64,000 nt of DNA, from NCBI RefSeq assembly GCF_002804105.1, contig NZ_CP024964.1, positions 744,001 through 808,000 on the forward strand, written 5' to 3'. Below, in pieces: positions 1 through 47,943 of this stretch. The notes under the pieces are model-generated. The model ran no database searches, was not told the DNA's origin, and saw nothing but the letters and a program-made list of their open reading frames with translations. Every line of letters starts with the position of its first letter. The first letter of the stretch is position 1. This DNA is from Mesoplasma melaleucae (GTDB lineage Bacteria; Bacillota_I; Bacilli_A; Mycoplasmatales; Mycoplasmataceae). A program made the position numbers and the translations under genes.

Positions 1-1419
1 CCAGCAGGAGCATTAGTGGGTCAAATTAAGCCAGTTAATAAAGACGGACGCTTTCCTAAACTTTATGCAAAAGAAGGAACACAAGTATTTCCTAAATTAA
101 CATTCCCATTTCAAACGCAACCTGTTTTAAGTTTAATCGACTATTGAAATAGTGACCAAATTATACCTTTAAATGATATTCTGAACTTTATTAAATCAAA
201 GGGTAAAAAATATAATGATTCATTTTCTTTAGCTGATTTCTTAAAATTAGGTAAACCTTCAGAGAAACCAGTTTTAAGAGTAGACTCTGGAGAAAAGATT
301 AGATTCTATTCGAAAGGTATAAGAGAAGACGGTAGTTACTCAATGAATGGTGTATGAATACCCAAAAATGAACCATATGAAGAATGAATAGAATTTACTA
401 AAGGAAGTAAAATTGGATATAAAGTAGCTTCAGGAAATCCTGGTGCAGCTAGATTACTAAATAAAATAATTGATGACATCTATCAAGTTGAAGTTACTCC
501 AAAAGAATACACAAACTATAGTGCAGCTTTTGAAGTATTGTTAAGTATGTTAACTGAATCTTTCTGAAAAGATAATGAATTTGAAGGTGCTATAAAAACT
601 GTAGATAAAGATGGGCAAATAATTGAAGAAATTGATGATAAAACTATTTATGTAAGATCGCAAAAATATGCTGGACAAGACAGATATAGTGTAACAACTA
701 ATTTGTGGTTGGCATGAAAGAAAGTTAATCAAGATTTAGTAATTAATAATCAATCAATAATTAAAAGAATAGAATCAGTCATGGCAATGTTATCAGGACA
801 ATTAAAATGTAATTATTCAATCAACAAAGGAGATAATGATGATTATAAAATATTACTGCCATATTATTTTGAGTTACAAAACCCTATAGAAAATCCAAAT
901 AGAAACTGAGTTGAATATAAGGACATTATAGTAAAATTAAAATCTTCATATTTTGATATAACTGCATCTGAAATTAAACCAAAATTGACTCCTATTTCAG
1001 AAAATATCGTACATAAATTAGAATACAATCATTATGCTTTCCCTGAGTTAACAAAAACAATTGAGTCTGCATCAATACCATCGTCTATGCCACTTGATCA
1101 ACAATTGGCAAATGGCGAATATTCTAAATATCAGTTAAAGTCATTTAGCAATAATAAAGATGATATTGAAAAAATTAAAAACCAATATGGATCAGGAGAG
1201 ATTACATTTAACCCATTAACAAACATTTATATTATTAATAAAGGCAATTTTGAATTTAAGGAAGTAGAAGCGATTAAAGAATTAATAATTTCTAGCTTTT
1301 ACGGATCAGGCAAATGAAAAATAACGCTTATGACCGAAGCAAATATAGAAATTACTTTAAATCTAAACTTGTTTAATAAATTTGATACAAACAACAGTTT
1401 TGTTAATTTAATATTATAA
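1..1419 (+). CDS. C-terminal part of a large unknown protein
   Basis: The frame is open from the first base to TAA at 1417-1419, giving 472 residues of a longer protein whose start lies outside the window. It reads through several TGA(Trp) codons. No domain is recognised: the chain is hydrophilic, rich in Lys, Asn, Ser and Tyr, with alternating short beta-like stretches and no membrane segment. A small lipoprotein gene follows 21 bp downstream on the same strand, and the terminase-bearing mobile unit lies beyond that, so a phage or mobile-element structural protein is one possibility. A secreted or surface protein is another. The function is unknown. Confidence 0.75.
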
Positions 1420-1440
1420 TAATTTATATAAGAGGTTCAC

Positions 1441-1788
1441 ATGAAAAAAATATTATTAAGTTTAACATCACTATCAATAATTGGGCTAACAACTTCACAT
1501 GTTATTAGTTGCAATCAAGAAGGGAAATATATGATTCAAATTAGAAATTTAGACAGAAAAACAGGACAACCTATTCCAAACGGCATAGTTTTATGAGAAG
1601 GCGATAAAAGAACCATTAAAAGGTATGCAGTCGATAAAAGTCCAGATGGCGATGCACAGGTTAAAATGGAAGTTGAAGGACAAGAAGCAGCTGTTAGAAT
1701 ATCAGCTCAAGGAAATAAAGAACAGTATACTAAATACTTAACTGATCTTATAGGGTTTCCACCTGAACCATGATGAGGTACTAGCTAG
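1441..1788 (+). CDS. small predicted lipoprotein
   Basis: 115 residues starting at ATG 1441 with an AGAGG ribosome site about 5 bases upstream. The N-terminus is a classic Mollicute lipoprotein signal: MKK, a hydrophobic stretch, then the lipobox VISC with Cys21 as the predicted lipidation site. The mature part is polar and may form a small beta domain (GQPIPNGIVLWEGDKR region). The stop codon TAG lies inside the terminator stem. It should sit on the outer face of the membrane. The role is unknown. Confidence 0.8.
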
Positions 1789-1806
1789 TGATAGCTAGTT
1801 TTTTTT
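1780..1806 (+). terminator. intrinsic terminator after the lipoprotein gene
   Basis: Perfect 8-bp stem ACTAGCTA / TAGCTAGT with a GTGA loop, followed by seven T residues. The left arm overlaps the lipoprotein stop codon. Confidence 0.9.
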
Positions 1807-2066
1807 ATGCAATGTGGGCGGGTGGCGTAAAAGCGTGAAGTATTTTTATTTTTACCGTCAACAAAAAGATTTCACTTGACTCCTGTTTAGTTTTGTAAGA
1901 GAATAAAGTTATAATACATAAATTATATGAAATGTGATTTATGTATAAGTTTCTTTATTGTAGAGTTCTCTTTATAACTAGAACACCCCGCAAGCAAAAT
2001 TTTTTATTTCCGTCATGAATAAAAACTTATGAACGCTTGAGCCACCCAAAATTTTAAGGAGTAAAA
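1807..2066. promoter_or_regulatory. gene-free control region at the left edge of the mobile unit
   Basis: No ORF is supported in these 260 bases. They hold a TATAAT box at 1910-1915, immediately followed by a 10-bp inverted repeat (ATACATAAAT at 1914-1923 and ATTTATGTAT at 1937-1946). They also hold a GC-rich patch around 1814-1826, unusual for this DNA, and the sequence ACGCTTGAGCCACCC at 2033-2047. That sequence recurs at the edge of the second copy of the element and, inverted and degenerate, at 1820-1836. An operator-controlled promoter or a short structured RNA would both fit. Confidence 0.45.
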
Positions 2067-2570
2067 ATGAATACATCTGAAATAATAACTTCTGTTTTAA
2101 CTGCGACTTCTATTTTAGTTGCTGTTATTTTTCCTATTATTCTCTATTATACTAATAATTCAAACGAAGCAAGGAAACTTTATATTAAGCATAGTGAAGA
2201 TTTTAGAAATAATTTACGTCAGCTTGGACTTCAATTGAATATGCAATTTTCAAATGAAGAATATGTAAAATATTTTGTTCATTATTTGCTTCAATTTGAA
2301 GAAAATGTTAATACTGTTGAAAGTCATGTTAATAAAAATTTTTATTGAATTTGTTTAATTTGTAAAGAGCAAGATAGTTTTTCTTCAATAAAAGATACAA
2401 AAATTTCAGGAAAACTAACTGACTATAATGAGATGCGCAAAGTATATTGAATATTTTACTGGTGCAGTTTTAATAAAAGAAAAGTTAAATATAAGTTTAA
2501 AATTAAAACGAAATCAAAAATAGATCTTTATTTTTATTTTAAATGTTGTAATTTAGATTCAAATAATTAA
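2067..2570 (+). CDS. small membrane-anchored protein of the mobile unit
   Basis: 167 residues from ATG 2067, with AAGGAG seven bases upstream, to TAA at 2568-2570. Residues about 7-27 form one hydrophobic helix followed by a hydrophilic, Lys- and Asn-rich tail with two TGA(Trp) codons. The protein is probably anchored in the membrane with a cytoplasmic tail. The corresponding slot in the other copy of the element carries an unrelated zinc-ribbon gene, so this is exchangeable cargo. No family is recognised. Confidence 0.65.
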
Positions 2571-2658
2571 AGAAATGTATTTAAAAGAAGGTTAAATTCC
2601 TTTTTTATTGTAATTTTTAAAAAAGTTGCTAGGTATTACCTTATCTTGGAGGTAGTAC

Positions 2659-4380
2659 ATGAAACAAAATAAAATTAAATGAGAGGATCTAAAACCAACA
2701 GAAAATAATTTTAACTTTACCTTTGACGTTTTAGATGCGGTTTGAAATGATTTACTTAAAGAACCATTCAGTGCAAAAAGTTTATTTTATGCAATGTCAG
2801 GTGCTAAAGGATTTGGTAAGACCTTTTTAATCTGTTTGCTTGCTTTATATCTAGTTTGTAACTTTAAAGATTATAATGCTCAATTAGCTAAATACACTTA
2901 TGCATCAGCTAAAGAAAGTTACTACAAAACAATGAAGAAGGTAATGAATTTACTTAAAGAAGAATATGGAGTTACTGTTATTGATTTTATTGGACAAAAT
3001 AAAGTCGCACTAATTAAAGAATTTAACTCAGAATCAAAATGCGCATGAGTCTTTGAAAATGGCAGAGAAATTAATGTTATAGGATTTGATAATACTAGTA
3101 AATGAGAAGGTGTTCCAGCAGCTACTGGGGAAATAGGAATGTTTGCTATTGATGAAGTTATTCCTTTAGGTGAAGAAATAATCGATGAAGCAGACTATGT
3201 TTACAAGCTTGTAAATCTTATGACTCAAGTAGTGCGTGGTCAAAACTTAACTACATGCTTAGAACCTTTACCTGAATTAAAAGGAATAAAACCTTTACCA
3301 TTTAATAAAAATGAAACATGACAAATGTATAAAAAGCACTATATTCTTTTTGGATTTAATAATCATGATACAAGTCACCCAATTTATCAAATGTTTATGG
3401 ACGAAATAGCACCTTTAACAGACGAAGTAAAAGAAGAACTAGATAAAAATGCAGTTAGTTACAGAGAAGACACTACATTCTTAAACATGGGTGCCACTGT
3501 TATACGTGGAACTACAGCAATTAACAAAGCAAATTTAAATCCTAAAGTTTTGGAACTAGGGGAAGGTATTAAAGAACGTTGACCAGAAACTTACAACACT
3601 TTATTTAAAGGTGATGAAAATCAGATGCAAATAGATAAATATGCATATAGAAAAGATTTGCTTGAAAATGCTCAATTCTTTAACAAGGAAGATTTTTATT
3701 GAGATGAAACAAAGAGATTCTGATTTGACCAAATTAGAATTGGTTCAGATTATGCTGATGGTGGTGAAAGCGGAGATGACGCAGTAACAATGTTAATTGG
3801 ATTTGAACTTGATGCTATAACAGGTGTTGTTAAGGGAGTTTATATTTTAGATGAACTTTCTATATCAACAAAGAAATTTAAAAACATGGAAGATAAAGTT
3901 GAATCTATAGCTAATTTTATTAATGATAAAACTAGAAGCTATGAATTTGGATCAGCTAGAGCAAAATTTGAAGATCATATAAGATTTAAAATTGGAGCTG
4001 ATTCTAGAACTGTTAAAGATTTCTTAATTGGTATTCTTGAAAGAAATCATCAAATAAACAGAGAAATGCTAGAAAGAAATTTTACTTGCTTTATTTCATC
4101 AGGTTCTAAAGGATGAAAGATAGAAACAAGACACTATATGTGAAAGAGACTATTAAATGAAAAGAAATTATTCTTTGCAAACGAGTTAAAAGTAATAAAA
4201 AAAATACAAGGTGTTGACGTTGTAGTTAAAAAACATGGTTACTTGTATGATGAATTATTTAGATGTACACTTCACCCTGATAAAAAAATTAGAGATGAGC
4301 GACCAAAACGAAATAAGTTAGATGCTATAAATGCAGCAGAACATGCAATTAGTTACTTTAGATATAATCTTTTTGAGTAA
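2659..4380 (+). CDS. phage terminase large subunit (left copy)
   Basis: 573 residues from ATG 2659, preceded by a strong GGAGG site. Terminase large subunits are the packaging ATPase-nuclease motors of tailed phages. The N-terminal ATPase domain shows Walker A GAKGFGKT (48-55) and Walker B MFAIDE (161-166). The C-terminal nuclease domain shows GSDYADGG (Asp364 the likely metal ligand) and the late acidic motif DAINAAEHA (555-563). The length is normal for the family. Six or more TGA codons are read as Trp. No portal, capsid or small terminase gene is recognisable beside it; its partner here is a transposase. A near-identical copy lies at 45349-47070. Confidence 0.88.
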
Positions 4381-4381
4381 T

Positions 4382-4405
4382 AGAACCTTTTAGGGTTCTT
4401 TTTTT
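4382..4405 (+). terminator. terminator between terminase and transposase
   Basis: Stem AGAACC / GGTTCT with a six-base loop and a T run. It is conserved in the other copy of the unit at 45330-45347, so the two genes are probably not one simple transcript. Confidence 0.8.
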
Positions 4406-4433
4406 GTAAAATGGTAGCAGTAGGAGGACAACT

Positions 4434-5837
4434 ATGAAAGTAATAAATCAAATCGAAGTTTTTGATGAGTTAAAAGACTTACATTTAAATTTATTAATTG
4501 AAGATATGCTTGAGAAAATCCAAGAATTAGATTTAGAAATTAAAAATAGTGATTGGCGTAAAGCAGAAGGCTATTATGTTAATGGTTACTCAAAAAGAAC
4601 TATTATATTTAGCGAAGGTGTTATGACTTTGAAAAGAACAAAATATAAAATATGAAATTCAATTGAAAAAAAATGAAATACTAAATGTTTAGTGGATGAT
4701 TATATTCAATTAGAAAAATATCAAAGAATCAGTTATGAATACATTGATAAAATTCTTAATCAAGTTTCAGACGGAATTAAATACAAAGATATAATAAATT
4801 GTTATCCTAGAGCGAGAATTGATAAATCAACAATATCAAGAATTATTAAGAAAATGGATATTGAAAATTTAAGTGAAATTTCATCTGATTTAGATTATGA
4901 AATACCAAGTGATGCAGATAAATATGATTATGTTTATGTTTCTACAGATGACGCTTTTTTAAAACTAAAGGAATTTGATAAAGAAGAAGCAAAAATGAAA
5001 GCAAAAAAACATAGAGTTAGATTAGCTGTTCTTTATTTAGGAGTTTCAGATAAAAAAGATGATCGCAATTCTAAGTTAGTTCATAAAAGAATTATTTACC
5101 AAATTGATAAACAAAAAACTAGATTACCTTCATCAGCAAAGTTTGCAGAACTTGTTAGAGAAAAAATTAAAGAATTCTATGGTGACAAGGAAAGACAAAT
5201 TATAGTTTGTGGTGATGGGGATGACTACATAAAAAAAGTTGCAGATGAATTAAACGCTAAAATAGTTTTAGACTTTTTTCACTTAAAAGCAAAAATAAGA
5301 AGAGGTCTTCCTTTTACCAAATGAAATAATCCTGCTGGACTAAATCAATTATGTAACCTAATAATGGAAGATATAAAAACGGATCCATTTGCAGCAATAG
5401 ATAAATTAAAAATTTTAATCCATAGTGCAACCGATAATAAAAAAGTTTTATTAAAAGAAGCAATTAGATATATTAAAAATAATTTAGATGGTATATTTGC
5501 TTATCAAGAAGACTGATACAATGGATGTTACACTGAGTCTAACGTTTATCATTTTATTAAATCAATAAGTAATGGAAAATCTTATGCAGTAAAAACATTT
5601 AAGAACTTGATCGCTTTAAGGGCAGGCAAAATAAATTGTTTAAATGCTTTTGAAATATGAAAACATGAAAAAAACATAAAAATTGAACTAAATGCATTTG
5701 AAAATAAACATCATCAATGAAGAATGTTAAGAAACAAAGATTTTAGAAATGCTTCACGAAATGGTCATATAGCGTCTATAGATAGCAAATTTTCTAGATA
5801 CATTGATATTTTTAAACAATATAAAATGTACAAATAA
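4434..5837 (+). CDS. ISLre2/UPF0236-like transposase (left copy)
   Basis: 467 residues from ATG 4434, with an AGGAGG site, to TAA at 5835. The arrangement fits the UPF0236/ISLre2 DDE transposases, which mycoplasma ICE annotations call transposase-like. A charged N-terminal part with a helix-turn-helix-like stretch (about 110-140) is followed by VYVSTDD (Asp172), IIVCGDGDDY (Asp261) and CYTESNVYHF (Glu368), which I read as the D-D-E set. The chain ends in a basic tail. The gene is complete and could be active. The copy at 43892-45295 differs next to the second Asp. Confidence 0.85.
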
Positions 5838-5946
5838 AACTAAAAAATAGACATAAATGGTAAAAAAGGAAATTTAAGGATTTCTATATTTTTTGTTGCT
5901 TTTTTGCTAAAAATGATAAAATAAATGTAACAAAAGACGTTCACAT

Positions 5947-5982
5947 ACAATTTTTCCAGTAAATTTTTACTGGAAAAATTGT
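5947..5982. repeat. subterminal stem-loop at the 3' end of the mobile unit
   Basis: A perfect 17-bp inverted repeat (ACAATTTTTCCAGTAAA and its complement, two-base spacer). It is followed by AAATCTTAGGCTTTGCACC and then the element end. The same stem, with small bulges, occurs at 43750-43790 and in the scar at 59650-59685; one arm survives at 47500-47520. No T run follows, so a plain terminator is unlikely. It may be a transposase binding or processing site. Confidence 0.75.
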
Positions 5983-6009
5983 AAATCTTAGGCTTTGCAC
6001 CAAATAAAC

Positions 6010-6331
6010 AACTTGCTCAACATTTATAGTGGTTATAATCATCTCATATATTTACTTGAACTTTATTTTTTTCAAAATCAAAACTTATGTTTTCTAAATG
6101 TTGCTGAGCTTCAATTTTTAACAGGAAAATACATTTAAATAATTCTTGATTAATGTCTTCATGCTTGTTAATGAAGCTTCTTTATTGTTTTTCACTAAAA
6201 ATAATTTTTTCTAAGTTTAAATTAGATGTTGTTTTCTTATTAAAAAAGTTTGCACTTTTAATTGCAAAGTACATAGTTGCACAACTTGAAATAATTAGAA
6301 TTAAAACTAATATTGATTTAAAGTATTTCAT
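6010..6331 (-). pseudogene. small membrane or lipoprotein gene, broken
   Basis: From ATG 6331 the frame gives an N-terminal hydrophobic segment (ILVLILIISSCATMYF, possible lipobox) and stops at TAA 6182-6184 after 49 residues. The same frame then continues open for about 55 codons (KHEDINQELFKC..., ending ..NIWDDYNHYKCWA) into the end of the mobile unit. It looks like one gene with a nonsense codon that was truncated by the element insertion. The family is not recognised. Confidence 0.5.
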
Positions 6332-6397
6332 ATGTTTTTAAAAGCTCCTTCATTTCTTCAAAAGTTAAAATTGAAATTACTGTTTAAAATGCATTAT

Positions 6398-7432
6398 TTA
6401 ATTTATATGTGTATTTTTCAATAGTATTAACATTAAATTTATAATCTTGTACAAATAAATATTTTGCATAAATTTTGCATAAGACTTTATTTGATTTGAA
6501 ATTATATATTCCTTATCAAATATATTAAGTTTAATAATTAATTCCTGTTTCTTATTTCAATTATATGGATATATGTATAATTTTTTGTCTCCAGTTTTTA
6601 AATTAACAATTTTAGTTTTTTCATCTAATTCAGAAATACCATTATAAACAATTTGATAATTATCATTATTATTTAAAATACTTAAATTTAAATCACCTGA
6701 GTAGTATGTTTCAAACTTCTTTTTTTCGCTTAGTTCAACACTATTAATTTTAAAAGGCGGAAAAATTTTACTATTTTTTACTTGTTCTATTTCATAAATT
6801 AAGTTTTGATCACTATTTAATAAATGCATATTTAACTTTATTGTATTTTATATTTAAATCAAATAAATCTTAATACCTTTTGTTTATTTCAAGTGCATTA
6901 TTATTAATGTTAACTTCTGCTTTTAAAATAGATTCAGAATTTAGCTTTTTAATATTATTAAAATAATCATAATAACTTAAGCAACTTACTACATTGAGAT
7001 TAACCTTGTTGTTTACTTTCACAAACTCTGGATTTAATCTTATTTCACCCTTAGACTTATAATTTATTTGATTGAAATCATGACTTAAACCAAAATTTAA
7101 ATTAATAACATGATCTTTTTTTAAATCAGTTGGCAATTCATATTCAAAATAGGTTTTTAGAATTGACTGAACTGGTTTAATTTTTTTAAATCGCTTGAAT
7201 ACAATTTAAAATCTAAATTAAATAAATTAAAGGTATTATGATAATCTGAATCATTCATAATGTAAGGATTTAAACTTAAATTAACAAACATTTTGTAATA
7301 AGATGTTTTATTTACTAAATACGGTTTATTAATAAATATTATTTCTGGTGCAATAAATGATTGTTTATTGTTTGAAATAGTTGTATCAACGATAATATAT
7401 GTATTAATTTATTGTTGTGTTTGAACTAACAT
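6398..7432 (-). pseudogene. broken paralogue of the 310-residue protein at 25637-26569
   Basis: Starting at ATG 7432 there is a TAA at codon 8, a frameshift near 7165 and a further TAA at 6870, followed by an open stretch to TAA at 6398. The reconstructed protein is about 340 residues, rich in Asn, Lys and Tyr. In length, composition and local pattern (e.g. LYIYPYNWNKKQELIIKLNI against the FDWKANKLNQIIYTF region) it resembles the intact gene at 25637. Function is unknown. It lies between ldh and the element, in a decaying zone. Confidence 0.55.
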
Positions 7433-7471
7433 TTTTCACCTCTTTATATTTTTAAGCAAAAAGGACAAAAA

Positions 7472-7494
7472 AATAAGATGACAAGCATCTTATT
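7472..7494 (-). terminator. ldh terminator
   Basis: Stem AATAAGATG / CATCTTATT with a five-base loop. On the minus strand it is followed by a run of seven T, directly after the ldh stop. Confidence 0.88.
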
Positions 7495-7504
7495 ATTAAT
7501 TTAA

Positions 7505-8458
7505 TTAAGCAATAGCTTCTTTAGCTTTTTGGTAAGTTGCGTCTAAAGCTTCACATGATTTTTCAAATGCTACTTTTTCATCTTCTGATAAGTCTCATTC
7601 AATAATTGTTTCTCATCCTTTTGCTCCTAAAATTACAGGAACTCCAGTATAGAATCCTTTTTGACCATATTCACCGTTTAATTTAGCACCAACCATGAAT
7701 GTAGTTTTTTCGTCTCTTAAAATTGCTGATGATATAGCTGCTAAACATACACCAATTCCGTAGTATGTTGCACCTTTACGTTCAATAATTTCATAAGCCA
7801 TTCTAATAGCTCTTGTTCAGCATTCTTGTAAATCAGCTTCAGTAATTTTTCCTTCAGCTAAGTATTTGCTAATTGGTTGACCCATAACTGTTCCTTTTGA
7901 GTAAACAACAACTGATGAATCTCCATGTTCTCCCATAATGTAAGCATTAACTGATTTTGGAGCTACTTTTAATTTTTGAGCAACTAATCTTCTTAATCTT
8001 GCTGAGTCAAGAGTTGTTCCTGCCCCAACAACTGAATGTTCGTCATATCCTGTTACTTGTTGGTAAACTGTTGTTAAAACATCACAAGGGTTTGAAGCAA
8101 TAACTGTTACTCCTTTAAATCCTGATGCTTTAATAGCTTCAGCAATACCTTTCATAATTTTTGAGTTATCTGCAATTAATTCTAATCTTGTTTCACCAGC
8201 TCTTTGTGGACGTCCAGCTGTAATTACAATTAGATCTGCATCTTTACAATCTTCGTATGTCCCCGCTTTAATAGTAAATGGTTTGTCTACAACAGCCATT
8301 GTATCTTCGATATCAATTGCGTTTCCATCTGCTGCTTTTGTGTTAAGATCGATTAACACGTATTCTTCAGCTAATCCTTGGTTAACTGCTGAATAAATAA
8401 ATGACATACCAACTGCACCAGTTCCAACTAGTACAACTTTGTTTGAAGTTTTTTTCAT
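7505..8458 (-). CDS. ldh: L-lactate dehydrogenase
   Basis: 317 residues, normal for bacterial L-LDH. It converts pyruvate and NADH to L-lactate and NAD+, closing fermentative glycolysis in the cytoplasm. Visible: Rossmann loop VGTGAVGMS (11-19), the NADH-binding acid in VLIDL, substrate Arg in AGETRLE, and active-site GEHGDS with the catalytic His. One region reads VVGAGTTLDSARLRRL instead of the more usual GSGT.LD.ARFR, which looks like lineage variation. ATG is preceded by AAAGGAG. The gene has its own promoter and terminator, so it is monocistronic. Confidence 0.96.
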
Positions 8459-8495
8459 ATTTGTTTCTCCTTTATTATTTTTTCTCTATACCATT

Positions 8496-8501
8496 ATTAT
8501 A
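8496..8501 (-). promoter_or_regulatory. -10 box of the ldh promoter
   Basis: TATAAT on the minus strand, 38 bases upstream of the ldh start codon. No good -35 hexamer is seen at 16-18 bp. Confidence 0.6.
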
Positions 8502-8569
8502 TTCTCAATGATGTAAAAATTAAGCATTTTCAAAAGAGAAAATATAAATTTTAATTTATTTTGCAAATA

Positions 8570-8598
8570 AAAAAACACCATAGAATATAGCGTTTTTT
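8570..8598 (-). terminator. rpoC terminator
   Basis: A 13-bp stem with two G-U pairs (AAAAAACGCTATA / TATGGTGTTTTTT, TTC loop) ends in a T run on the minus strand, ten bases after the rpoC stop. Confidence 0.87.
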
Positions 8599-8607
8599 AA
8601 ATAATTA

Positions 8608-12372
<3,765 letters not shown>

Positions 12373-12381
12373 TTTGCCCTC

Positions 12382-15300
12382 CTATTCTTCTTCAAATGAA
12401 AGGTTGATTTCACTTTCATCTACTTCTTCAAAAATATCTAAATCTTGAATTTCAACAAGTGATACTGAATCTTCAAATGTCAATTTATCTGTTGATGCAT
12501 GTTTCATATTGTCATCATTTACTAAATCATTGTCATCATCATATGCATTAATTTGTGATTTATTTCCTTTGTCATCTAATAAGTAGATGTCAAATCCTAA
12601 TCCCATAATTTCTTTTGAAAGCACGTTAAATGATTCAGGGGTTCCAGGTGTTGGAATTTGTTTTGATCTAACAATTGCTTCATAAGTTTTTGTACGACCT
12701 TTTAAGTCATCTGATTTAATAGTTAAGATTTCTCTTAGAGTATGAGCTGCCCCATAAGCTTCTAATGCTCAAACTTCCATTTCTCCGAAACGTTGTCCCC
12801 CGTTTTGTGCTTTTCCTCCAAGAGGTTGTTGAGTAATTAATGAGTAAGGTCCAACACTTCTTGCGTGAAGTTTATCATCAACCATGTGTGAAAGTTTCAA
12901 CATGTACATAACTCCAACTGAAATTGGTTTATCAATAACATCTCCAGTTTGACCATCAATTAATTTAACTTTTCCATAGTTTTCCATTCCAGCTTCAGCC
13001 ATGATTTCATCTAAATCATTACTGTTAACACCTTCGAAAACTGGAGTTGCAATTTTAACTCCTAATTTTTTAGCTGCCATTCCTAAATGGATTTCTAAAA
13101 TTTGCCCAATGTTCATACGTGATGGAATCCCTTGTGGGTTCAATAGAATATCTACTGGTGTACCATCTTTTAAGTGAGGCATGTCTTCAACTGGTAACAC
13201 TTTTGAGATAATCCCTTTGTTACCGTGACGTCCTGACATTTTATCCCCTTCTTGGATTTTACGTTTTTGAACGATATATACTTTAATAACTTCTAATACA
13301 TCTGCTGGTAAATCAATACCATCTGGGTTTGTTGCTGATTTAGCTTTGAAGCGTTTAACAGCTTGAACAATACCTTCTCCACCATTTGGAACTTTTAATG
13401 AGTTATCTTTAACTGATCTTGATTTTTCTCCAAAAATAGCATGTAATAATTTATCTTCTGGTGATAATTGAGTTTGTCCTTTTGGAGTTACTTTACCAAC
13501 TAAAATATCTCCTGTTTTAACTTCAGTACCAATTGCTACAATACCTTCTTGATCTAAGTATTTTTTAGCATTGTCACTAATGTTTGGAATTTCAGAAGTA
13601 ATTTCTTCTGCTCCTTGTTTTGTATTACGAACTTCTAATACATATTCATCAATATGCACTGAAGTAAATTTATCTTCCATGATAACTCTTTCAGACATAA
13701 CAATGGCATCCTCGAAGTTGTAACCATTATAAGTTGTAAAGGCAACAATAACGTTTTGACCTAGAGCTAATTCTCCGTTATCAACAGATGGTCCATCAGC
13801 AATAATTTGACCAGCTTCAATTGAATCTCCAACTTTAACAATTGGTTTTTGTACAATTGAACTTCCATTGTTTGAACGTTCAAAGTTTGCTAATGTATAT
13901 GTTTTAATTCCTGATTTTGCTTCAACTGCAATTTGTTTTGCATCTACATATTTAACGATTCCGTTTTCTGTAGCAACAACACAAACCCCTGAGTCTCTAG
14001 CAGCTTCAAATTCAATTCCTGTTCCAACGAATGGTGATTCTGGAACAATTGTAGGGACAGCTTGACGTTGCATGTTGGCACCCATAAGTGCACGGTTGGC
14101 GTCATCGTTTTCTAAGAATGGAATTGCTGAAGTGGCAACTGAAACAATTTGTTTTGGAGAAACGTCAATAAATTGCACTTCTGATACTCTAGCGATGTAA
14201 TCATCACCTTTGTAACGAGAAACAACAGTTTCATCTAAGATTTTTCCATTTTCATCTTTTGTAACATTTGATTGAGAAATAATGTATTCTTTTTCTTCAT
14301 CAGCTGACAAGTATTGGTGTTCATTTTCAATTACACCATCAATAACTTTTAAGTAAGGTGTTCTAATGAATCCTAATTCATCAACGATTGCATAAGTTGA
14401 TAAGTTATTAATCAATCCAATGTTTGGTCCCTCTGGAGTTTCAATAGGACAGATTCTTCCATAGTGAGAAGGGTGAACGTCACGCACTTCTAAGCTGGCA
14501 CGATCTCTTGATAATCCCCCAGGTCCTAAAGCAGTTAATCTACGTTTGTTTGTTAATTCTGCTAATGGGTTAATTTGATCCATGAATTGTGATAATTGTG
14601 ATAAGTTGAAGAACTCTCCAATTACAGCAGTTAATGGTTTTGCGTTAATAATTGTTGAAACTTTAACTTTGTATAAGTCACTTGTTGAAAGTTTTTCTTT
14701 AACATTTTTATCAATACGAGTTAATCCCATTCTGAATTGGTTTTGTAATAATTCTCCAACTGTTCTAACACGACGGTTAGCCAAGTTGTCAATATCATCG
14801 TATTCACCAATGTTGTATTCTAATCCTAACAAGTAAGAAACAGTAGCAACAATATCAACAACTGTAATATGTTCTTCTTTTGAATCAGGTGTAATTCCAA
14901 CTAATGTAAAAGTTTCTCTTCTTGAGTTATTGTCTTGGTAAACTTTTACACTTTGAATTTTACGTGAACCAGGAATGTCTTCTTTGTATTCGATTGAAGA
15001 AACCATAACACCATCTTGTGATAATGCTTCAGCAACTTCTTTAATGTTTGCTTTAGAAATTTCAGTATCTTTTGCTACTAAAACTTTTCCTTTTGCATCA
15101 ACGATATCTTCAGCTAAGATTCTTCCTATTAAACGATTTTTAACAGCTAATTTTTGTTGTAATTTAAATCTACCTGCTTTTGTTAAATCATATTTTCTAC
15201 GGTCAAATAATAATCCGTTAATGTATTTTGATGCTCCATCAGATGTTGCAGTTTCACCTTGTCTAATTTTTTTATAAATTTCTTGAACGTGTTGTGCTCA

Positions 15301-16236
15301 GTCTGCGTATGAATCTCCAGTATCATTGTCATTTTTTAATGTTTCAACAATAACTTTCTCTTTATCAAAAATATTTAAGATTGTATCTCTGTCAATTCCT
15401 AAAATTTTTAAGAATGAAGTTGCAGTTGTTTTTCTTGATTTATCAATTTTTACAAATAATGAATTTGTTGTTTCAGCAGTTTTTTTAGTATCTGTTTCAA
15501 ATTCTAATCAAGTTCCACGACTTGGAATGATATCACCGTTGTATAGGTTTTCTCCTGTCTTGTTGTTGATTTCAGTTTTAAAGTATGATCCTGGTGATCT
15601 AACTAATTGTGAAACAATAACTTTTTGTGAACCATTGATAACAAATGTTCCAGCGTCAGTCATTAAAGGGAAATCTCCAAAGAATACTTGCCCTCACTTT
15701 CTAACATTAATTTCAGCAACAATTAAATCTTCTTTTTCTTCTAAGATTGTAATTTGAAATAAGTCATTCTTTTCTGTACTTTTTAATTTAACGTCAAAGA
15801 AATAAATGTTTTCTGTATTTTTAACAAGAGTAACATTTTTTGAATCTGTTTTTTGAGCAATTCAGTTTACTAAAACTTTTTTAATATCTTTTTCTACAAT
15901 TTCTTCAAACTCTTTTGAAATGTCTTCTGTTTTAGTAAACATTAATTGTAAGTCTACGTAAATTGGAGCATCATAAATTTTTGATTGTTCTTTTGCTTTA
16001 GCTGGAGAGATTTTAGCTTCTTTAATTTCTCACCCTTCTAAGAAAAGAGATGCACTTAAGTCATTTGAGCTCATTGGAAAAAATTCGTTTAATACTTCGT
16101 CAATTCCTTTTGTTTTGAATCATTCGAAAGTTCTTGTTTGAATTTCAATTAAGTTTGGTAATTCAAGATTACCTGAAACTTTTCTATAATCACGTCTTTC
16201 AACGCCACGGTTTACTTTTTTAATTTTATATGCCAT
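12382..16236 (-). CDS. rpoB: RNA polymerase subunit beta
   Basis: 1284 residues from ATG 16236 (AAAGGAAAC upstream) to TAG. All landmark motifs are present: the rifampicin region [40 protein letters not shown], the [12 protein letters not shown] motif and the C-terminal [19 protein letters not shown]. At the position of E. coli His526 it has Asn (residue 563), the change reported to explain natural rifampicin resistance in spiroplasmas. The upstream Fic-like gene ends 14 bases before the start, so the two are probably co-transcribed. Confidence 0.98.
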
Positions 16237-16250
16237 GTTGTTTCCTTTCA

Positions 16251-17408
16251 TTATTCTAAAATATATTTGTATTTATTTAATAGCTTGTCTGCAACTGTAA
16301 AGTTTGCATCGCTTTTTGTAACTTTGACAATATTTGCGCTTTTTAGATTTTCTAAAGCATCTTTTATTTCTTGTTTTTTAATTGTTTGATTACCATTAAT
16401 TTTCAAGATATCTGTAATTCTTTTAACAGAGACTTCTTTTGTTCTTTCTGATAATATTGCACTTAATATAATGATTTCATAATCACTTGCAAAAAATTTT
16501 GATCTAACTTCATAATCAACATTAATTCATTCATAAACTAATGATAATAAGAAGCCTTTTTTAACTGATTCTCTTAAATGTTTTTTTGTAAATGCTAAAA
16601 GTCCATTTATATTAAACCCTTTTTTAAATGATTTATTGATTTGTAAGATCAATTCTTCTCAATGATTTGCAATATCAAAAATTCAAATTTTAAACTTACT
16701 GTTTTCTTTACTTTGATTAATAAATCATAAACTCATTAGTAAAGCAACACTTGAGTTAAATCTTTGGTAAGGTTGAATAATTAAAATCTGCAAGAAAATA
16801 ATTATTGCTTTGGTAAAACCATCAAAAGAATTTTGTGGTACATCATTTATAAACTCAAATAAACCTTTTAACTCATAATCAATAGCATTAAAATCTATTT
16901 CAATGTCAGTTAATATTTTCTTATTATCAGTTCTGTAATAATTAGCTTTTCGATCTAAATTGAATTCTGTATTTCTGAATAAAATATGAATCAGTAATTC
17001 ATAGTTATCTTCATTAATTTCAAAATCAGCTTTCTTTACTAGTCTAATTGCTTCAATAAAGTTCATTGCCATTTTTTCTTTTTTAGATTTTGGCTTTAAA
17101 CCGTTTTCATTTTTTTTAATTGTGTTATGAATTGAAAGCATTGAAGATCCTTCACATAAGTTTTCTAAAAACATCAGTGAAGAAACATTACTTGTAGAAA
17201 TAAGATTTGATAAAAATTTATTTTTTGAAAATGAGTATGCTTGAAAGTAATTTGTTAAATACTTATCACTTTGAATTTCTTCCATTGGTTTAAAATTCAT
17301 TTTTTGCTCTATTGATAAAGGAAAGTTAATAGTAAAAAGTTCTTCATCTTCAACGATTTGAATCATTAAATCTACGAACTTTTTGTTAAGAAAATAATTT
17401 AGACTCAT
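16251..17408 (-). CDS. Fic/Fido-fold protein with degenerate active site
   Basis: 385 residues. ATG 17408 was chosen over an upstream TTG at 17423 because GGGAGG lies just before it. The Fic-like parts are an inhibitory-helix-like ENLCEGSSMLSIHNT, a helix with a YYRTDNKKI segment, and a helix at the Fic core. The catalytic motif HPFxxGNGR is replaced by QPYQRFNSS (212-220), lacking His, Gly and Arg. The C-terminal 100 residues look like a winged helix (SVKRITDILKINGNQTIKKQE). AMP transfer is therefore unlikely; a regulatory or DNA-binding role is my inference. It is driven by its own promoter and leads into rpoBC. Confidence 0.68.
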
Positions 17409-17491
17409 TAGACTTCCTCCCAATATTTCTTTTGCAAAAAAAATAAGGATAGCAGAAGCTCTTAACTAACTAAACTATACTCGATTATTAT

Positions 17492-17520
17492 ATTATATAT
17501 AATTTACTCTAAAAAAGCAA
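17492..17520 (-). promoter_or_regulatory. promoter for the Fic-like gene and rpoBC
   Basis: On the minus strand TTGCTT (17515-17520), a 17-bp spacer and TATAAT (17492-17497). It lies after the rplL terminator and is probably the main promoter of the Fic-like gene-rpoB-rpoC unit. Confidence 0.72.
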
Positions 17521-17593
17521 ATATTATTGAGCTTTTCATGTTTAAAAATAATTAAAATTTTTAACTTTGTAACTTATTTTACATGTAAAAATA

Positions 17594-17618
17594 AAAACCT
17601 AAGATCATCTTAGGTTTT
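17594..17618 (-). terminator. rplL terminator
   Basis: 11-bp perfect stem AAAACCTAAGA / TCTTAGGTTTT with a three-base loop and T-rich flanks, after the rplL stop. It separates rplJL from rpoBC, which are often one operon in other bacteria. Confidence 0.92.
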
Positions 17619-17641
17619 TTTTAATAAGAAATTAGTGAATA

Positions 17642-18010
17642 CTATTTGTATTCAACTGATGCTCCAGCTTCAACTAATTGAGCTTTAATTGCATCTGCTT
17701 CTTCAATTTTAACGTTTTCTTTAATAGATACTGGTAAAGTTCCATCAACTAATTTTTTAGCGTCCATTAATCCTAATCCAGTTACTTCTTTAACTACTTT
17801 AATAACTGCAACTTTTTGTCCACCTGCGTTTGTTAACATAACTGAAACTTCTGATGGTGCTGAATCAGCAGCAGCTGGTCCTGCAGCAACAGCAACACCT
17901 GCTGATGCAACAACGTCGAAGTGTTCTTCGATTGCTTTAACTAATTCGTTTAATTCTGTTAATTTCATTTCTTCTAATGCTTTAATAATATCTTCTTTTG
18001 TAATTGCCAT
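17642..18010 (-). CDS. rplL: ribosomal protein L7/L12
   Basis: 122 residues. Forms the stalk dimers on the large subunit that recruit translation GTPases. The N-terminal dimerisation helix (IIKALEEMKLTELNELVKAI) is followed by an Ala/Gly-rich hinge and the C-terminal domain with KVAVIKVVKEVTGLGLMDAK. It lies 57 bases after rplJ in the L10 operon. Confidence 0.97.
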   Translation of the reverse strand: MAITKEDIIKALEEMKLTELNELVKAIEEHFDVVASAGVAVAAGPAAADSAPSEVSVMLTNAGGQKVAVIKVVKEVTGLGLMDAKKLVDGTLPVSIKENVKIEEADAIKAQLVEAGASVEYK

Positions 18011-18066
18011 GATTTTGGTCTCCTTTTTAATATTTTTATTTGCTATTAATACATTTAATTATTCTA

Positions 18067-18567
18067 TTAGTTTTGTTTTGTATCAGCAACAGCTTTAATT
18101 ACCGCCATAACTTGACGTATTGGGTAAAGTAAGCTTGATGCAAACATTAAGTATAAATCTTCTTTTGATGGTAGTGTAGCAACTTCTGTAATTGCTGCAG
18201 TATTCATAGCTGCGTTTTCGTATACTCCAGCTTTTAATTTTAATGCTTCATTTTCTTTTGCAAAGTTAGCTACTAATTTAGCAGCACCAATTGCATCTTC
18301 GTTTGAGAAAACAAAAACATTTTGTTGAGTTAAATATTCGTTTAATTCTGATAAATTTAATTGATCAACTGCTCTTCTAACAAGTGAGTCTTTATAAACT
18401 TTAACTTCAATACCTTGTTTTAAAGCTTGTCTTCTTAAATTTGACATTTGTTCAACTGTTAAGTGTTTGTATTCTGCAATAGCAACACCTTGAGCTGATT
18501 GAATTTTAGAAACAATCTCAGCAACGATTTCTGCTTTTTTAGCATGTGCAGGTCTATTTGTTGACAT
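18067..18567 (-). CDS. rplJ: ribosomal protein L10
   Basis: 166 residues. Anchors the L7/L12 stalk to 23S rRNA. It shows the N-terminal L10 pattern (AEIVAEIVSKIQSAQGVAIAEY, the GIEVKVYKDSLVRRA segment) and a C-terminal helix for L7/L12. ATG is preceded by TAGGAGG. It lies directly behind an L10-type leader and is followed by rplL. Confidence 0.96.
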   Translation of the reverse strand: MSTNRPAHAKKAEIVAEIVSKIQSAQGVAIAEYKHLTVEQMSNLRRQALKQGIEVKVYKDSLVRRAVDQLNLSELNEYLTQQNVFVFSNEDAIGAAKLVANFAKENEALKLKAGVYENAAMNTAAITEVATLPSKEDLYLMFASSLLYPIRQVMAVIKAVADTKQN

Positions 18568-18602
18568 TCGTATTCCTCCTATTTTCTTATTTTATAAAAC
18601 AA

Positions 18603-18750
18603 AACCCTCGGTTCTTAATGCAAAGACCGAGGGAAACGTAAAAATACATTTTTTAAATTAATGTTTGATTTATTTAATAAATGTTTATGTAATCCTCGGT
18701 AACAAATTAAGGGAAAGTCCCAGTTACTGTCTTTGGTATTAATAGCCTTT
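18603..18750 (-). ncRNA. L10 ribosomal protein leader
   Basis: The leader between promoter and rplJ shows the L10-binding core (ACCAAAGACAGTAACTGGGA, then TTTCCCTTAATTTGTTACCG on the minus strand). It ends in an attenuator hairpin CCCTCGG / CCGAGGG (18605-18633) with a TTTTGTTTT tail. Known L10 leaders let L10-L7/L12 repress their own operon by premature termination. Confidence 0.85.
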
Positions 18751-18754
18751 ATTA

Positions 18755-43589: not shown

Positions 43590-43891
43590 TGAATTAACAT
43601 ATTTAAATAAAGCAGTAAAAAATTTAAGGATTCGTTAAATATGTAATTAGTTTGTTTTCTTAAAATAATTATAACATATTTAATTTATTTTTTCTTTTAT
43701 GATTTTCTAAAGAGCAAGTTGTTTATTTGGTGGAAAGCCTAAGATTTACAATTTCCAGTAGAAATTTACTGGAAAAATTGCATGTGAACATCTTTTATTA
43801 CATTTATTTTATCATTTTTAGCAAAAAAGCAACAAAAAAATATAGAAATCCTTAAATTTCCTTTTTTACCATTTATGTCTATTTTTTAGTT

Positions 43892-45295
43892 TTATTTGTA
43901 CATTTTATATTGTTTAAAAATATCAATGTATCTAGAAAATTTGCTATTTATAGACGCTATATGACCATTTCTTGCAGCATTTCTAAAATCTTTGTTTCTT
44001 AGCATTCTTCATTGATGATGTTTATTTTCAAAGGCATTTAGTTCAATTTTTATGTTTTTTTCATGTTTTCATATTTCAAATGCATTTAAACAATTTATTC
44101 TACCTGCCCTTAACGCGATCAAGTTCTTAAATGTTTTTACTGCATAAGATTTTCCATTACTTATTGATTTAATAAAATGATAAACGTTAGACTCAGTGTA
44201 ACATCCATTGTATCAGTCTTCTTGATAAGCAAATATACCATCTAAATTATTTTTAATATATCGAATAGCTTCTTTTAATAAAACTTTTTTATTATCGTTT
44301 GCGCTGTGGGTTAAAATTTTTAATTTATCTATAGCTACAAATGGATAGGTTTTTATATCTTCCATTATTAGGTTACATAATTGATTTAGTCCAGCTGGAT
44401 TATTTCATTTAGTAAAAGGAAGACCTCTTCTTATTTTTGCTTTTAAGTGAAAAAAGTCTAAAACTATTTTAGCGTTTAATTCATCTGCAACTTTTTTTAT
44501 GTAGTCATGCTTATCACCACAAACTATAATCTGTCTTTCCTTGTCATCATAGAATTCTTTAATTTTTTCTTTAACAAGTTCTGCAAACTTTGCTGATGAA
44601 GGTAATCTAGTTTTTTGTTTATCAATTTGGTAAATAATTCTTTTATGAACTAACTTAGAATTGCGATCATTTTTTTTATCTGAAACTCCTAAATAAAGAA
44701 CAGCTAATCTAACTCTATGTTTTTTTGCTTTCATTTTTGCTTCTTCTTTATCAAATTCCTTTAGTTTTAAGAATGCATCATCTGTAGAAACATAAACATA
44801 ATCATATTTATCTGCATCACTTGATATTTCATAATCTAAATCAGATGAAATTTCACTTAAATTTTCAATATCCATTTTCTTAATAATTCTTGATATTGTT
44901 GATTTATCAATTCTCGCTTTAGGATAACAATTTATTATATCTTTGTATTTAATTCCGTCTGAAACTTGGTTAAGAATTTTATCAATGTATTCATAACTGA
45001 TTCTTTGATATTTTTCTAATTGAATATAATCATCCACTAAATGTTTAGTGTTTCATTTTTTTTCAATTGAATTTCATATTTTATATTTTGTTCTTTTCAA
45101 AGTCATAACACCTTCGCTAAATATAATAGTTCTTTTTGAGTAACCATTAACATAATAGCCTTCTGCTTTACGCCAATCACTATTTTTAATTTCTAAATCT
45201 AATTCTTGGATTTTCTCAAGCATATTTTCAATTAATAAATTTAAATGTAAGTCTTTTAACTCATCAAAAACTTCGATTTGATTTATTACTTTCAT
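43892..45295 (-). CDS. ISLre2/UPF0236-like transposase (right copy)
   Basis: 467 residues, same start, length and stop as the left copy. The first Asp motif VYVSTDD and the CYTESNVYHF Glu motif are unchanged. Around the second Asp the sequence reads CGDKHDY instead of CGDGDDY, because GGG-GAT became AAG-CAT at 44507-44512. Gly after that Asp is part of the usual GDG motif, so this copy may be weakened. Other differences are conservative or scattered. Confidence 0.84.
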
Positions 45296-45329
45296 AGTTG
45301 TCCTCCTACTGCTACCATTTTACAAAAAA

Positions 45330-45347
45330 AGAACCCTAAAAGGTTCT
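45330..45347 (-). terminator. terminator between terminase and transposase (right copy)
   Basis: Stem AGAACC / GGTTCT with a T run on the minus strand, identical to that at 4382-4405. Confidence 0.8.
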
Positions 45348-45348
45348 A

Positions 45349-47070
45349 TTACACAAAAAGATTATATCTAAAGTAACTTATTGCATGTTCAGCTGCATTT
45401 ATAGCATCTAACTTATTTCGTTTTGGTCGTTCATCTCTTATCTTTTTATCTGGGTGAAGTGTACATCTAAATAATTCATCATACAAGTAACCATGTTTTT
45501 TAACTAGAACATCAACACCTTGTATTTTTTTTATTACTTTTAACTCGTTTGCAAAGAATAATTTCTTTTCATTTAATAGTCTCTTTCACATATAGTGTCT
45601 TGATTCTATCTTTCATCCTTTAGAACCTGATGAAATAAAGCAAGTGAAATTTCTTTCTAGCATTTCTCTGTTCATTTGATGATTTCTTTCAAGAATACCA
45701 ATTAAGAAATCTTTAACAGTTCTAGAATCAGCTCCAATTTTAAATCTTATATGATCTTCAAATTTTGCTCTAGCTGATCCAAATTCATAGCTTCTAGTTT
45801 TATCATTAATAAAATTAGCTATAGATTCAACTTTATCTTCCATGTTTTTAAATTTCTTTGTTGATATAGAAAGTTCATTTAAAATATAAACTCCCTTAAC
45901 AATACCTGTTATAGCATCAAGTTCAAATCCAATTAACATTGTTACTGCGTCATCTCCACTTTCACCACCATCAGCATAATCTGAACCAATTCTAATTTGG
46001 TCAAATCAAAATTTCTTTGTTTCATCTCAATAAAAATCTTCCTTGTTAAAGAATTGAGCATTTTCAAGCAAATCTTTTCTATATGCATATTTATCAATTT
46101 GCATCTGATTTTCATCCCCTTTAAATAAAGTGTTATACGTTTCTGGTCAACGTTCTTTAATACCTTCACCTAGTTCTAAAACTTTAGGATTTAAATTTGC
46201 TTTGTTAATTGCTGTAGTTCCACGTATAACAGTGGCACCCATGTTTAAGAATGTAGGGTCTTCTCTATAACTAACTGCATTTTTATCTAGTTCTTCTTTT
46301 ACTTCGTCTGTTAAAGGTGCTATTTCGTCCATAAACATTTGATAAATCGGGTGACTAGTATCATGATTATTAAATCCAAAAAGAATATAGTGCTTTTTAT
46401 ACATTTGTCATGTTTTATTTTTATTAAATGGTAAAGGTTTTATTCCTTTTAATTCAGGTAAAGGTTCTAAGCATGTAGTTAAGTTTTGACCACGCACCAC
46501 TTGAGTCATAAGATTTACAAGCTTGTAAACATAGTCTGCTTCATCGATTATTTCTTCATTTAAAGGAATAACTTCATCAATAGCAAACATTCCTATTTCC
46601 CCAGTAGCTGCTGGAACACCTTCTCATTTACTAGTATTATCAAAACCTATAACATTTATTTCTCTGCCATTTTCAAAGACTCATGCGCATTTTGATTCTG
46701 AGTTAAATTCTTTAATTAGTGCAACTTTATTTTGTCCAATAAAATCAATAACAGTAACTTCATATTCTTCTTTAAGTAAATTCATTACTTTTTTCATTGT
46801 CTTATAATAGCTTTCTTTTGCTGATGCATAAATATATTTTGCTAACTGGGCATTATAATCTTTAAAATTACAAACTAGATATAAAGCAAGCAAGCAAATT
46901 AAAAAAGTCTTACCAAATCCTTTAGCACCTGACATTGCATAAAATAAACTTTTTGCACTGAATGGCTCTTTTAGTAAATCATTTCAAACTGCATCCAAAA
47001 CATCAAATGTAAAGTTAAAATTATTTTCAGTTGGCTTTAGGTCTTTTCAATTAGTTATTTTATGTTCCAT
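45349..47070 (-). CDS. phage terminase large subunit (right copy)
   Basis: 573 residues with Walker A GAKGFGKT, Walker B MFAIDE, nuclease GSDYADGG and DAINAAEHA all intact. The N-terminal dozen residues differ from the left copy (MEHKITNWKDLK against MKQNKIKWEDLK) and the last residue is Val instead of Glu. The left copy's strong GGAGG ribosome site is absent here; only weak purine-rich sequence precedes ATG 47070, so translation may be poorer. Confidence 0.86.
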
Positions 47071-47127
47071 GTGTTTCTAGTTTGAGTAGATTAATACATA
47101 ACAACATTTTTTAAAATTGCAATAAAA

Positions 47128-47146
47128 AAGAAGAATTAACCTTCTT
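47128..47146 (-). terminator. terminator after the zinc-ribbon gene
   Basis: Stem AAGAAG / CTTCTT with a seven-base loop containing the gene's stop codon, then TTTTTTATT on the minus strand. The left copy has a decayed version near 2586-2610. Confidence 0.72.
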
Positions 47147-47313
47147 TGTTTTGATTTTGTTGCATTTTTATCTTTTTATGTCCATAAAGATTTGTACACA
47201 TTCAAGTAGAATCATTATCTACATTGCAATGTTTGCAATCTTTAAAAGATTTTGTTACTCCTACTTTTTTGCAAATACCACATTTAATATCTATAAAAAA
47301 AATGACCAGCCAT
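47136..47313 (-). pseudogene. zinc-ribbon protein with a one-base poly-T frameshift
   Basis: ATG 47313 (GAGAGG upstream) starts MAGHFF, then TAG or TAA follows because the T run has eight bases. With seven, it continues into a 58-residue protein with two Cys pairs, KCGICKK and DCKHCN, plus a third Cys in STWMCTN, ending KKIKMQQNQNKEG. That is a small zinc ribbon. Slippage at the run could still allow some full-length product. Confidence 0.65.
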
Positions 47314-47487
47314 TAATAAACCTCTCATAATTAACTCTTTCTATCTTTTTTTAAGAAATTAGAATAAACCATTTCTGTAACTTCTAGTTCACTTTCTTTC
47401 AAACTAAGGTAAAAGAAACCTATTATTATATAATAAATTAAAAAATTTGGGTGGCTCAAGCATTCATAAGGAGTAAGTTGAATTGTC

Positions 47488-47522
47488 GGTGCAAAGGCTA
47501 AGATTTACAATTTCCAGTTAAA
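47488..47522 (-). repeat. solo 3' end of an older mobile unit
   Basis: Reads GGTGCAAAGGCTAAGATTTA then CAATTTCCAGTT on the plus strand. It matches the 3' end of the unit (compare 43737-43770) in the same orientation as the right copy. Head-to-tail with that copy, 18 bases apart. Confidence 0.75.
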
Positions 47523-47537
47523 ATTTATTTTAATATT

Positions 47538-47690
47538 TAAAATACCTTCATTTTTCTGTAAACATATTTAAGAATTTCAATTAATTCTTTTGCTGCTTTA
47601 GCTTCTTCTTATTTTTTAATTCCTTTACAAGCACTTCTACTATTATTTCTTTAATAGATAAATCATCATATTTATCTTTAACTTATAAAA
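47538..47690 (-). pseudogene. small helical protein remnant
   Basis: Minus-strand fragments KVKDKYDDLSIKEIIVEVLV and, after a frameshift, EEAKAAKELIEILKYVYRKM, ending at TAA 47538. It has no start codon and is probably part of the older, decayed copy of the mobile unit. The family is unknown. Confidence 0.5.
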
Positions 47691-47943
47691 GTTGATTAAA
47701 TTGTTAACAGATTTTTAAAAAAGTTTCTTTTCGAAGAAAAAGAAATTTATAGTTATCTCATTGAATACTAACTAAAACCTTAGTGAGTACTTATTAAATA
47801 CTAATTAAAATTTTAAAAGTTAAATTTGCAGACAAATATTAAGTTTCATATTAAAACAAGCAACAAAAAAATAATTAGTTAAAACTAATGCTTATTTTTA
47901 TGTGTTTAATGATTAATTATTTATTCTCTACTACGTTTTCAAA

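Follow-up and report, generated by a model that had tools for sequence, protein, structure and literature searches.

The locus analysed here raises the question of what kind of element brings a phage large terminase gene (TerL) and a transposase gene together. Both lie near the start of a 64,000-nt stretch of the Mesoplasma melaleucae genome (contig NZ_CP024964.1; C1:744,001-808,000 of genome G000, 845,295 bp in total), which we call the window and in which open reading frames (ORFs) were read with TGA as tryptophan. The genes, TerL at 2659-4380 and the transposase at 4434-5837, are codirectional and 53 bases apart, and a preliminary description had placed them in a two-gene, ISLre2-type mobile unit at 2026-6018. 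The neighbourhood itself was confirmed: both ORFs are open, the first matching PHROG_2 (E 5.9e-10), the large terminase that marks tailed phages (Caudoviricetes), and the second NF046004. Our results suggest that the pair is the right end of a prophage of approximately 16 kb that inserts by transposition and probably belongs to a lineage of tailed phages infecting Mollicutes; we put the probability of this reading at roughly 0.88.

The prophage spans genome positions 733,981-750,018 (16,038 bp), with window positions 1-6018 as its right end and the remaining 10,020 bp to the left of the window start. Its ends were found by comparison with a second Mesoplasma species (G004) and with a second copy in the window (copy 2). 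It is bounded by imperfect terminal inverted repeats (left end GGGCAAGTTGAATAGTTAGTGCAAA; right end, inverted, GAGCAAGTTGTTTATTTGGTGCAAAG), and an 8-bp target duplication, AACATTTA, flanks both ends. The right limit given in the preliminary description, 6018, is exact by flank comparison and is the last base of the prophage, but its left limit, 2026, is no element end. Six other species of the genus were compared at this locus; five have the neighbouring ldh gene and G005 gave no match. In all five relatives having the locus the site is empty and both flanks meet, overlapping directly by 8 bases in three (L110, L112 and L114 of G001, G003 and G006) and with the same 8-base offset, extrapolated from the start of the right-flank match, in the other two (L111 and L113 of G002 and G004). 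The target letters at these empty sites are similar to AACATTTA, not identical. As far as sequence can tell, these comparisons show that what moved was the whole block of 16 ORFs enclosed by the imperfect inverted repeats, and that its insertion duplicated 8 bp of the target. The features at the start of the window are:

1-6018, plus strand: right 6,018 nt of the 16,038-bp putative transposable prophage (terminal inverted repeats, 8-bp duplication, empty site in 5/5 relatives)
1-1419, plus strand: 3′ part of g12, which encodes a conserved 677-aa phage protein and starts at genome position 743,386; weakly similar to HtpT of phage MAV1
1441-1788, plus strand: g13, small lipoprotein-like ORF with weak, sub-threshold matches to mollicute lipoprotein models
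2067-2570, plus strand: g14, 167-aa ORF conserved in G004, holin-like by position and appearance only, with weak matches
2659-4380, plus strand: g15, large terminase TerL, 573 aa, related to MarRP of MAV1
4434-5837, plus strand: g16, Mutator/MICE-type DDE transposase, 467 aa (NF046004, E 5.6e-87; MICE, mycoplasma integrative conjugative element)
5993-6018, minus strand: right terminal inverted repeat, whose partner starts at genome position 733,981
6019-6026, no strand: right copy of the 8-bp target duplication AACATTTA

The 16 ORFs of at least 70 aa were named g1-g16 and all lie on one strand; an overlapping 132-aa ORF on the opposite strand was set aside. For g1, g2 and g4 there was no credible match, and g3 is weakly ASCH/DUF3850-like. 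The g5 product, judged via its family, is RuvC-like and matches the RuvC-like gene of the NSRO phages of Spiroplasma; it is followed by g6 and g7, the latter acidic. Next comes g8, in the capsid region, with weak matches to major-head PHROGs (7.8e-4 and 2.6e-3), and then the large conserved proteins g9-g12. Scans of the G000 element proteins other than g2 with Pfam and PHROGs revealed no recognisable polymerase, primase, helicase, endolysin or second integrase; the lack of a lysin would be in keeping with a host that has no cell wall.

The transposase scores 292.4 bits against NF046004 ('Mbov_0401 family ICE element transposase-like protein', cut-off 162; ICE, integrative conjugative element) vs. 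82 bits against the ISLre2 model NF033529, below its cut-off of 200. The term 'ISLre2-type' was therefore loose, and the element has 16 named ORFs, not a transposase alone. Residues D172, D261 and E368, which we take to be the catalytic DDE triad, are conserved in 13/13 aligned homologues. TerL has only two matches in the whole genome, the two copies in the window, and for the transposase three more partial matches were found, near 220 and 412 kb.

Other genera of Mollicutes also have this set of phage genes ending in a transposase. We found TerL matches in 10 and transposase matches in 18 of the 60 genomes searched, and g12 in 36 of 298 genomes of the order, in 11 of 46 genera (own genome included in each count). 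Starting from the G000 proteins, iterated profiles extended to the Spiroplasma-type RuvC, g6, g9, g10, g11, g12, TerL and transposase. The pairing is no isolated case. In 29 stretches there are 23 TerL ORFs 450 aa or longer, and a Mutator-type transposase lies within 80 bp of 14 of them and within 700 bp of 17; the six without such a neighbour are those of G010, G012 and G013, both of G044 and one of G040. The pair is codirectional in G000 and G004 and divergent in G026, G040 and G053. Broken copies occur in S. poulsonii MSRO and S. phoeniceum P40. The S. citri plasmid pScpLB319-1 carries a relative, in whose record the transposase is named 'UPF0236 family transposase-like protein', g12 'DUF3688 family protein' and TerL a hypothetical protein; no family ends were found around this copy. 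Searches of 50,697 phage records gave no match for TerL, g12 or g11 and three for the transposase, namely two NSRO phages and a faecal 'Bacteriophage sp.' (MT838724; 4,939 bp, human, unannotated), whose positions 718-1911 match 87% of the transposase at 20% identity (E 2e-4). Scans of IMG/VR with A2 and A11 gave no match, and one with A10 gave one Spiroplasma-type contig.

Further relatives were seen in other arrangements. The stretch L156 (G202) holds, at 2496-18385, g9-g12 between a broken family TerL and an NSRO-type TerL that has a transposase gene to itself, possibly a mosaic or a nested insertion of both phage lineages. Relatives of g12 and g10 are present in L149/L150 (G019), L143 (G031) and L146 (G150), with no TerL or transposase recognised in these stretches, and G150 and G019 each have two g12 genes within 10 kb. 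The genomes G044, G050 and G055 (family f9) have at least 27, 24 and 15 Mutator-type transposase matches, respectively; G050 and G055 had no TerL match in the search of 60 genomes.

Both ends could be located for eight Mutator-type insertions (tandem pairs counted once), and six of the eight have exact target duplications of 8-9 bp. The G004 element of 15,391 bp has a 9-bp duplication and an empty site that is not clean on one side. Duplications in G053 are AAATTTTA and, around a tandem pair, GAACTTTT; those in G040 are AAAGTAAT and TTTAATTT, the latter enclosing 21.8 kb. A G075 candidate with an 8-bp duplication was left out of the count, and ends sought for G137, G158, G172 and G153 were not resolved. 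In the two tandem pairs, both in G053, the copies are identical over 10,897 nt (100%) or nearly so over the 12,250 nt compared (99.97%), and their 5-nt spacers (ACTTT and CTTTT) equal the last five bases of the left target copy, as would be expected if a circular form had integrated or recombined there. The sequences show that other Mollicutes also have these phage genes, bounded by ends and duplications of their own. The preliminary description had partnered the terminase with the transposase in a transposon; the two are indeed parts of a single mobile unit, and in other Mollicutes too they move as a pair between defined ends, but TerL is not the cargo of an insertion sequence (IS), the unit being a whole prophage. 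It had also held that an intact prophage with a transposase inserted independently beside TerL would speak against such a unit. The prophage around TerL does appear intact, yet the transposase is not independently placed: in copies with both ends located it always occupies the end slot, within the prophage's own inverted repeats.

This slot is not reserved for one enzyme. The elements of G010 and G013 have the phage genes of the family, with TerL inside the element and no Mutator-type gene at the end; after g12 and a lipoprotein-like ORF, G010 has an ORF with HTH_21 and rve domains, and G013 has two ORFs of this kind in the same position. In G134 an HTH_21/rve ORF lies directly 3′ of TerL. We labelled these ORFs IS3-type, presuming that they belong there. 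The ends of the three elements share TAGnGTGAACCC and have exact 3-bp duplications (G010, 17,287 bp, AAT; G013, 17,362 bp, TTG; G134, 14,917 bp, GTA). With up to two mismatches allowed, the expected number of TAGnGTGAACCC copies per stretch is 1.05 to 2.7; those at the six ends have 0-1 mismatch, occur at both ends in inverted order and are accompanied by 0 or 1 extra match per stretch. An ORF family is common to the IS3-type phages G013 (L066 12496-13335) and G010 (L079 15561-16346), the G010 member being a D12-class adenine methyltransferase. A serine recombinase candidate in G013 was rejected, as the 938-aa ORF is a cation ATPase.

In G060 and G065 a third type, an rve/rve_3 transposase, adjoins TerL. 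With ends taken from the limits of homology, these elements measure 15,373 bp (G060) and 16,198 bp (G065), have TGTAA...TTACA termini and show exact 15-bp duplications (CGTTTAGTTTTCTTA and AAATATAGTTGTTAG, respectively); we take them to resemble the IS1202 family. G060 and G065 contain six full-length copies of the third transposase at 94% identity or more, each no further than 1.2 kb from a TerL ORF. A 65%-identity relative is found in L168 (G060:C1:306000-314000) at 3291-4373, beside a 615-aa ORF and with no terminase recognised, and perhaps marks another kind of mobile element using this type. We show that, with the same structural genes, the end slot of the lineage has been filled by three transposase types: Mutator (8-9-bp duplications), IS3-type rve (3 bp) and another rve (15 bp).

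Comparison of close relatives points to exchange of these enzymes. In one genus (genus label g11, distinct from the gene) TerL is 71% identical between G172 (Mutator type) and G158 (IS3 type), and capsid-region proteins are 70.5% identical between G172 and G137 (IS3 type); differing transposases directly follow TerL. On the TerL and g12 trees the transposase types interleave, with four type changes each where two is the minimum possible. Tests on a subset with close rows rejected the grouping of three Mutator-type phages (approximately unbiased p, p-AU, 0.017 for TerL and 0.0013 for g12) and that of the IS3-type phages (0.0017 and 0.0087), the groups having been chosen after the first trees were seen, G010 and G013 being long branches and the small g12 tree having one starred branch. 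The Mutator-type transposases of the phages form three groups on the transposase tree, in which at least one row labelled 'other' (L040) is near a g12 ORF. Those of G026 and G153 group with the NSRO phages (100/100), whose structural module differs, and thus the transposase crosses phage lineages. In G158, IS3-type genes also lie away from recognised phage genes (L170, L172); they are 41% identical to the phage one, so no recent capture from that copy is seen.

Copy 2 and fragments of related elements lie further along the window:

43712-47147, minus strand: copy 2, decayed, with a right end, open transposase (43892-45295) and TerL (45349-47070) (96% over 3,442 nt)
47467-48558, minus strand: internally deleted fragment of another family element, in which right-end sequence is fused to left-arm sequence (g4/g5 region); it abuts copy 2
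59607-59766, plus strand: isolated right-end remnant of a third element

A duplicate of the pair had been reported at 43712-47470. Both ORFs are indeed repeated and open on the other strand (43892-47070; 97% over 3,249 nt to copy 1), but copy 2 ends at 47147 and has no left end of its own; it abuts the fragment at 47467-48558, which begins with right-end sequence and resembles an internal deletion derivative. Between the copies dN/dS is 0.09 for TerL and 0.20 for the transposase (dS 0.16 and 0.08), and these low ratios suggest that both diverged mostly as working genes. The two copies would so be like two related phages, rather than decay after a single duplication.

Two known phage groups stand close to this family. 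The Spiroplasma phage MaM-2019a records NSRO-P1 and NSRO-P2 (OL689227 and OL689226) are approximately 19 kb long and share with it a terminal UPF0236/Mutator-type transposase, adjoining divergent terminase genes and a RuvC-like gene; unlike them, profiles of the G000 g9, g10, g11, g12 and major capsid protein (MCP) match nothing there at E<=1, and TerL is alike by hhalign only (88% and 65%). PMC12453411 describes contigs of approximately 19 kb assembled from phage-like particle DNA of two S. poulsonii strains, including NSRO, and the two records probably correspond to these contigs. Their terminal UPF0236 transposase is prior art for part of our finding. MAV1 (AF074945; 15.6 kb) is related through TerL, g11 and g12, whose profiles pair with MarRP, HtpN and HtpT (hhalign probabilities 97.5, 92.8 and 86; g9 35; no match for MCP). 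It forms plaques (PMC7466169), but its record annotates a phage-family integrase and attP and no transposase. Two other papers touch related hosts: S. citri prophages are described mainly as plectroviruses (PMC8140453), and M. florum W37, W12 and W20 have a cluster of 16 hypothetical proteins and a predicted phage-tail-fibre protein, 12 with spiroplasma or entomoplasma homologues (PMC5893858). That cluster, which is not labelled a transposable prophage there, is possibly the same kind of prophage.

Several observations weigh against a tailed phage that integrates by transposition. Capsid evidence is thin, the best PHROG match of g8 reaching 7.8e-4, and no relationship could be detected between the capsid-region proteins of the G000 type and those of the Spiroplasma type. 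A portal role for g11 and tail roles for other proteins are weakly suggested, by gene position and by weak matches in hhalign. Among PDB sequences, nothing credible was found with profiles of the MCP, g11, RuvC-like and TerL families, and AlphaFold models (a single g11 relative; TerL with 4 rows) were unusable (mean pLDDT, the model confidence score, 31.6 and 30.7). As most element proteins match nothing, replication genes could be missed. On the side of integration, the G053 tandem pair at 1261520 is flanked by TAAACTTT and AATACTTT, 6/8 nt alike, and the G071 insertion, with both ends located, has no duplication. The raw inverted-repeat match was reached by 27/60 shuffles for G010 and 15/60 for G013, vs. 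0/60 for G134; we accepted the G010 and G013 ends because they share a motif at both ends and have exact 3-bp duplications. Finally, the tandem pairs may be assembly artefacts.

The alternative that survives best is a domesticated packaging cluster, or a phage satellite dependent on a helper, with the transposase for mobility. We regard it as unlikely. Its genome of just 16 kb and the broken copies in several relatives would fit; however, the size is like that of plaque-forming MAV1, to which TerL, g11 and g12 appear related, the ORFs are long and open, and TerL and the transposase were under purifying selection between the two copies. Far less probable is a remnant of a MICE, as the NF046004 annotation would suggest. 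The transposase does exceed that cut-off, its gene lies beside one inverted repeat, and duplications of 8-9 bp are common to this family and the Mycoplasma ICE (p-MULT 5). In PMC3942029 the MICE transposase superfamily is tied to ISs and ICEs, MICE likewise keep the transposase beside one inverted repeat and have circular forms, and the circles reported for the superfamily carry 6-10-bp spacers from one flank, vs. 5 nt here; that text holds one word beginning with 'phage' and none beginning with 'prophage'. No type IV secretion gene was recognised in our element (NCBIfam run on five element proteins only; g14 gave a sub-threshold MICE pilin-like match, E 0.026), and where MICE have a conjugation module this one is filled by TerL, RuvC-like and capsid-region genes. 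An ordinary prophage with an IS landed by chance beside TerL is hardly credible either: Mutator-type transposases are common enough in the genomes searched, but the outer prophage ends are inverted repeats beside the transposase, with a duplication length typical of the enzyme family, no second integrase was recognised among the G000 element proteins in Pfam and PHROGs, and the slot is kept across genera. The two-gene IS-like transposon first proposed, with TerL as cargo or as a partner (nuclease/translocase, or packaging by a helper phage), draws on the adjacency of the genes and their joint repetition at 43712-47147, but can be set aside as highly improbable since the repeats and duplication enclose 16 named ORFs, copy 2 lacks its own left end, and in G026, G040 and G053 the genes are divergent with phage genes alongside.

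For a prophage integrating by transposition, we propose that the transposase would cut and join the ends, integrating the incoming genome at varied sites. It would probably also make a circular or replicated form for TerL, the presumed packaging motor rather than transposon cargo, to package. Two observations point this way: the element has no recognised polymerase, primase, helicase or other integrase, and the 5-nt spacers that join the copies of the two tandem pairs equal part of the flanking target. As a speculation, the RuvC-like protein could resolve branched intermediates. IS3 transposition passes through circles. A broader proposal, which we advance tentatively, is that the lineage handed both integration and genome replication to IS transposases, with a one-end 'mobility slot' whose types, each with its own end repeats, were swapped repeatedly and shared with other phages, and with a common copy-out circle as the packaging substrate.

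Transposable tailed phages are usually seen as relatives of Mu with one transposase lineage, Mu itself inserting at scattered sites by a DDE transposase, with MuA and MuB proteins and 5-bp duplications. The present family is like Mu-type phages in having a DDE transposase inside its ends, in a role that would be comparable, and copies at different sites with target duplications; it is unlike them in that no MuA/MuB-like pair was recognised, the transposases are IS-type and the duplications are 8-9, 3 or 15 bp. The family, spread through Mollicutes, appears to use IS-type transposases and has exchanged one type for another, with its packaging and structural genes retained. No description of transposase exchange in a phage lineage, or of this family as transposable phages, was found in the open-access literature searched (most subscription papers lie outside it). 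As one transposase family moves ICEs and seemingly also phages, the line that separates insertion sequences, ICEs and phages can be put to the test. The family could explain some of the repeated, rearranged prophage remnants in spiroplasma genomes, and it provides small systems in which to ask whether a phage can replicate by copy-out transposition.

Two minor observations concern the rest of the window. The remnant at 59607-59766 holds the last bases of a transposase gene and lies close to a gene that is presumably aldolase-like, and a ribosomal protein L10 leader (Rfam RF00557) is present at 18590-18754.

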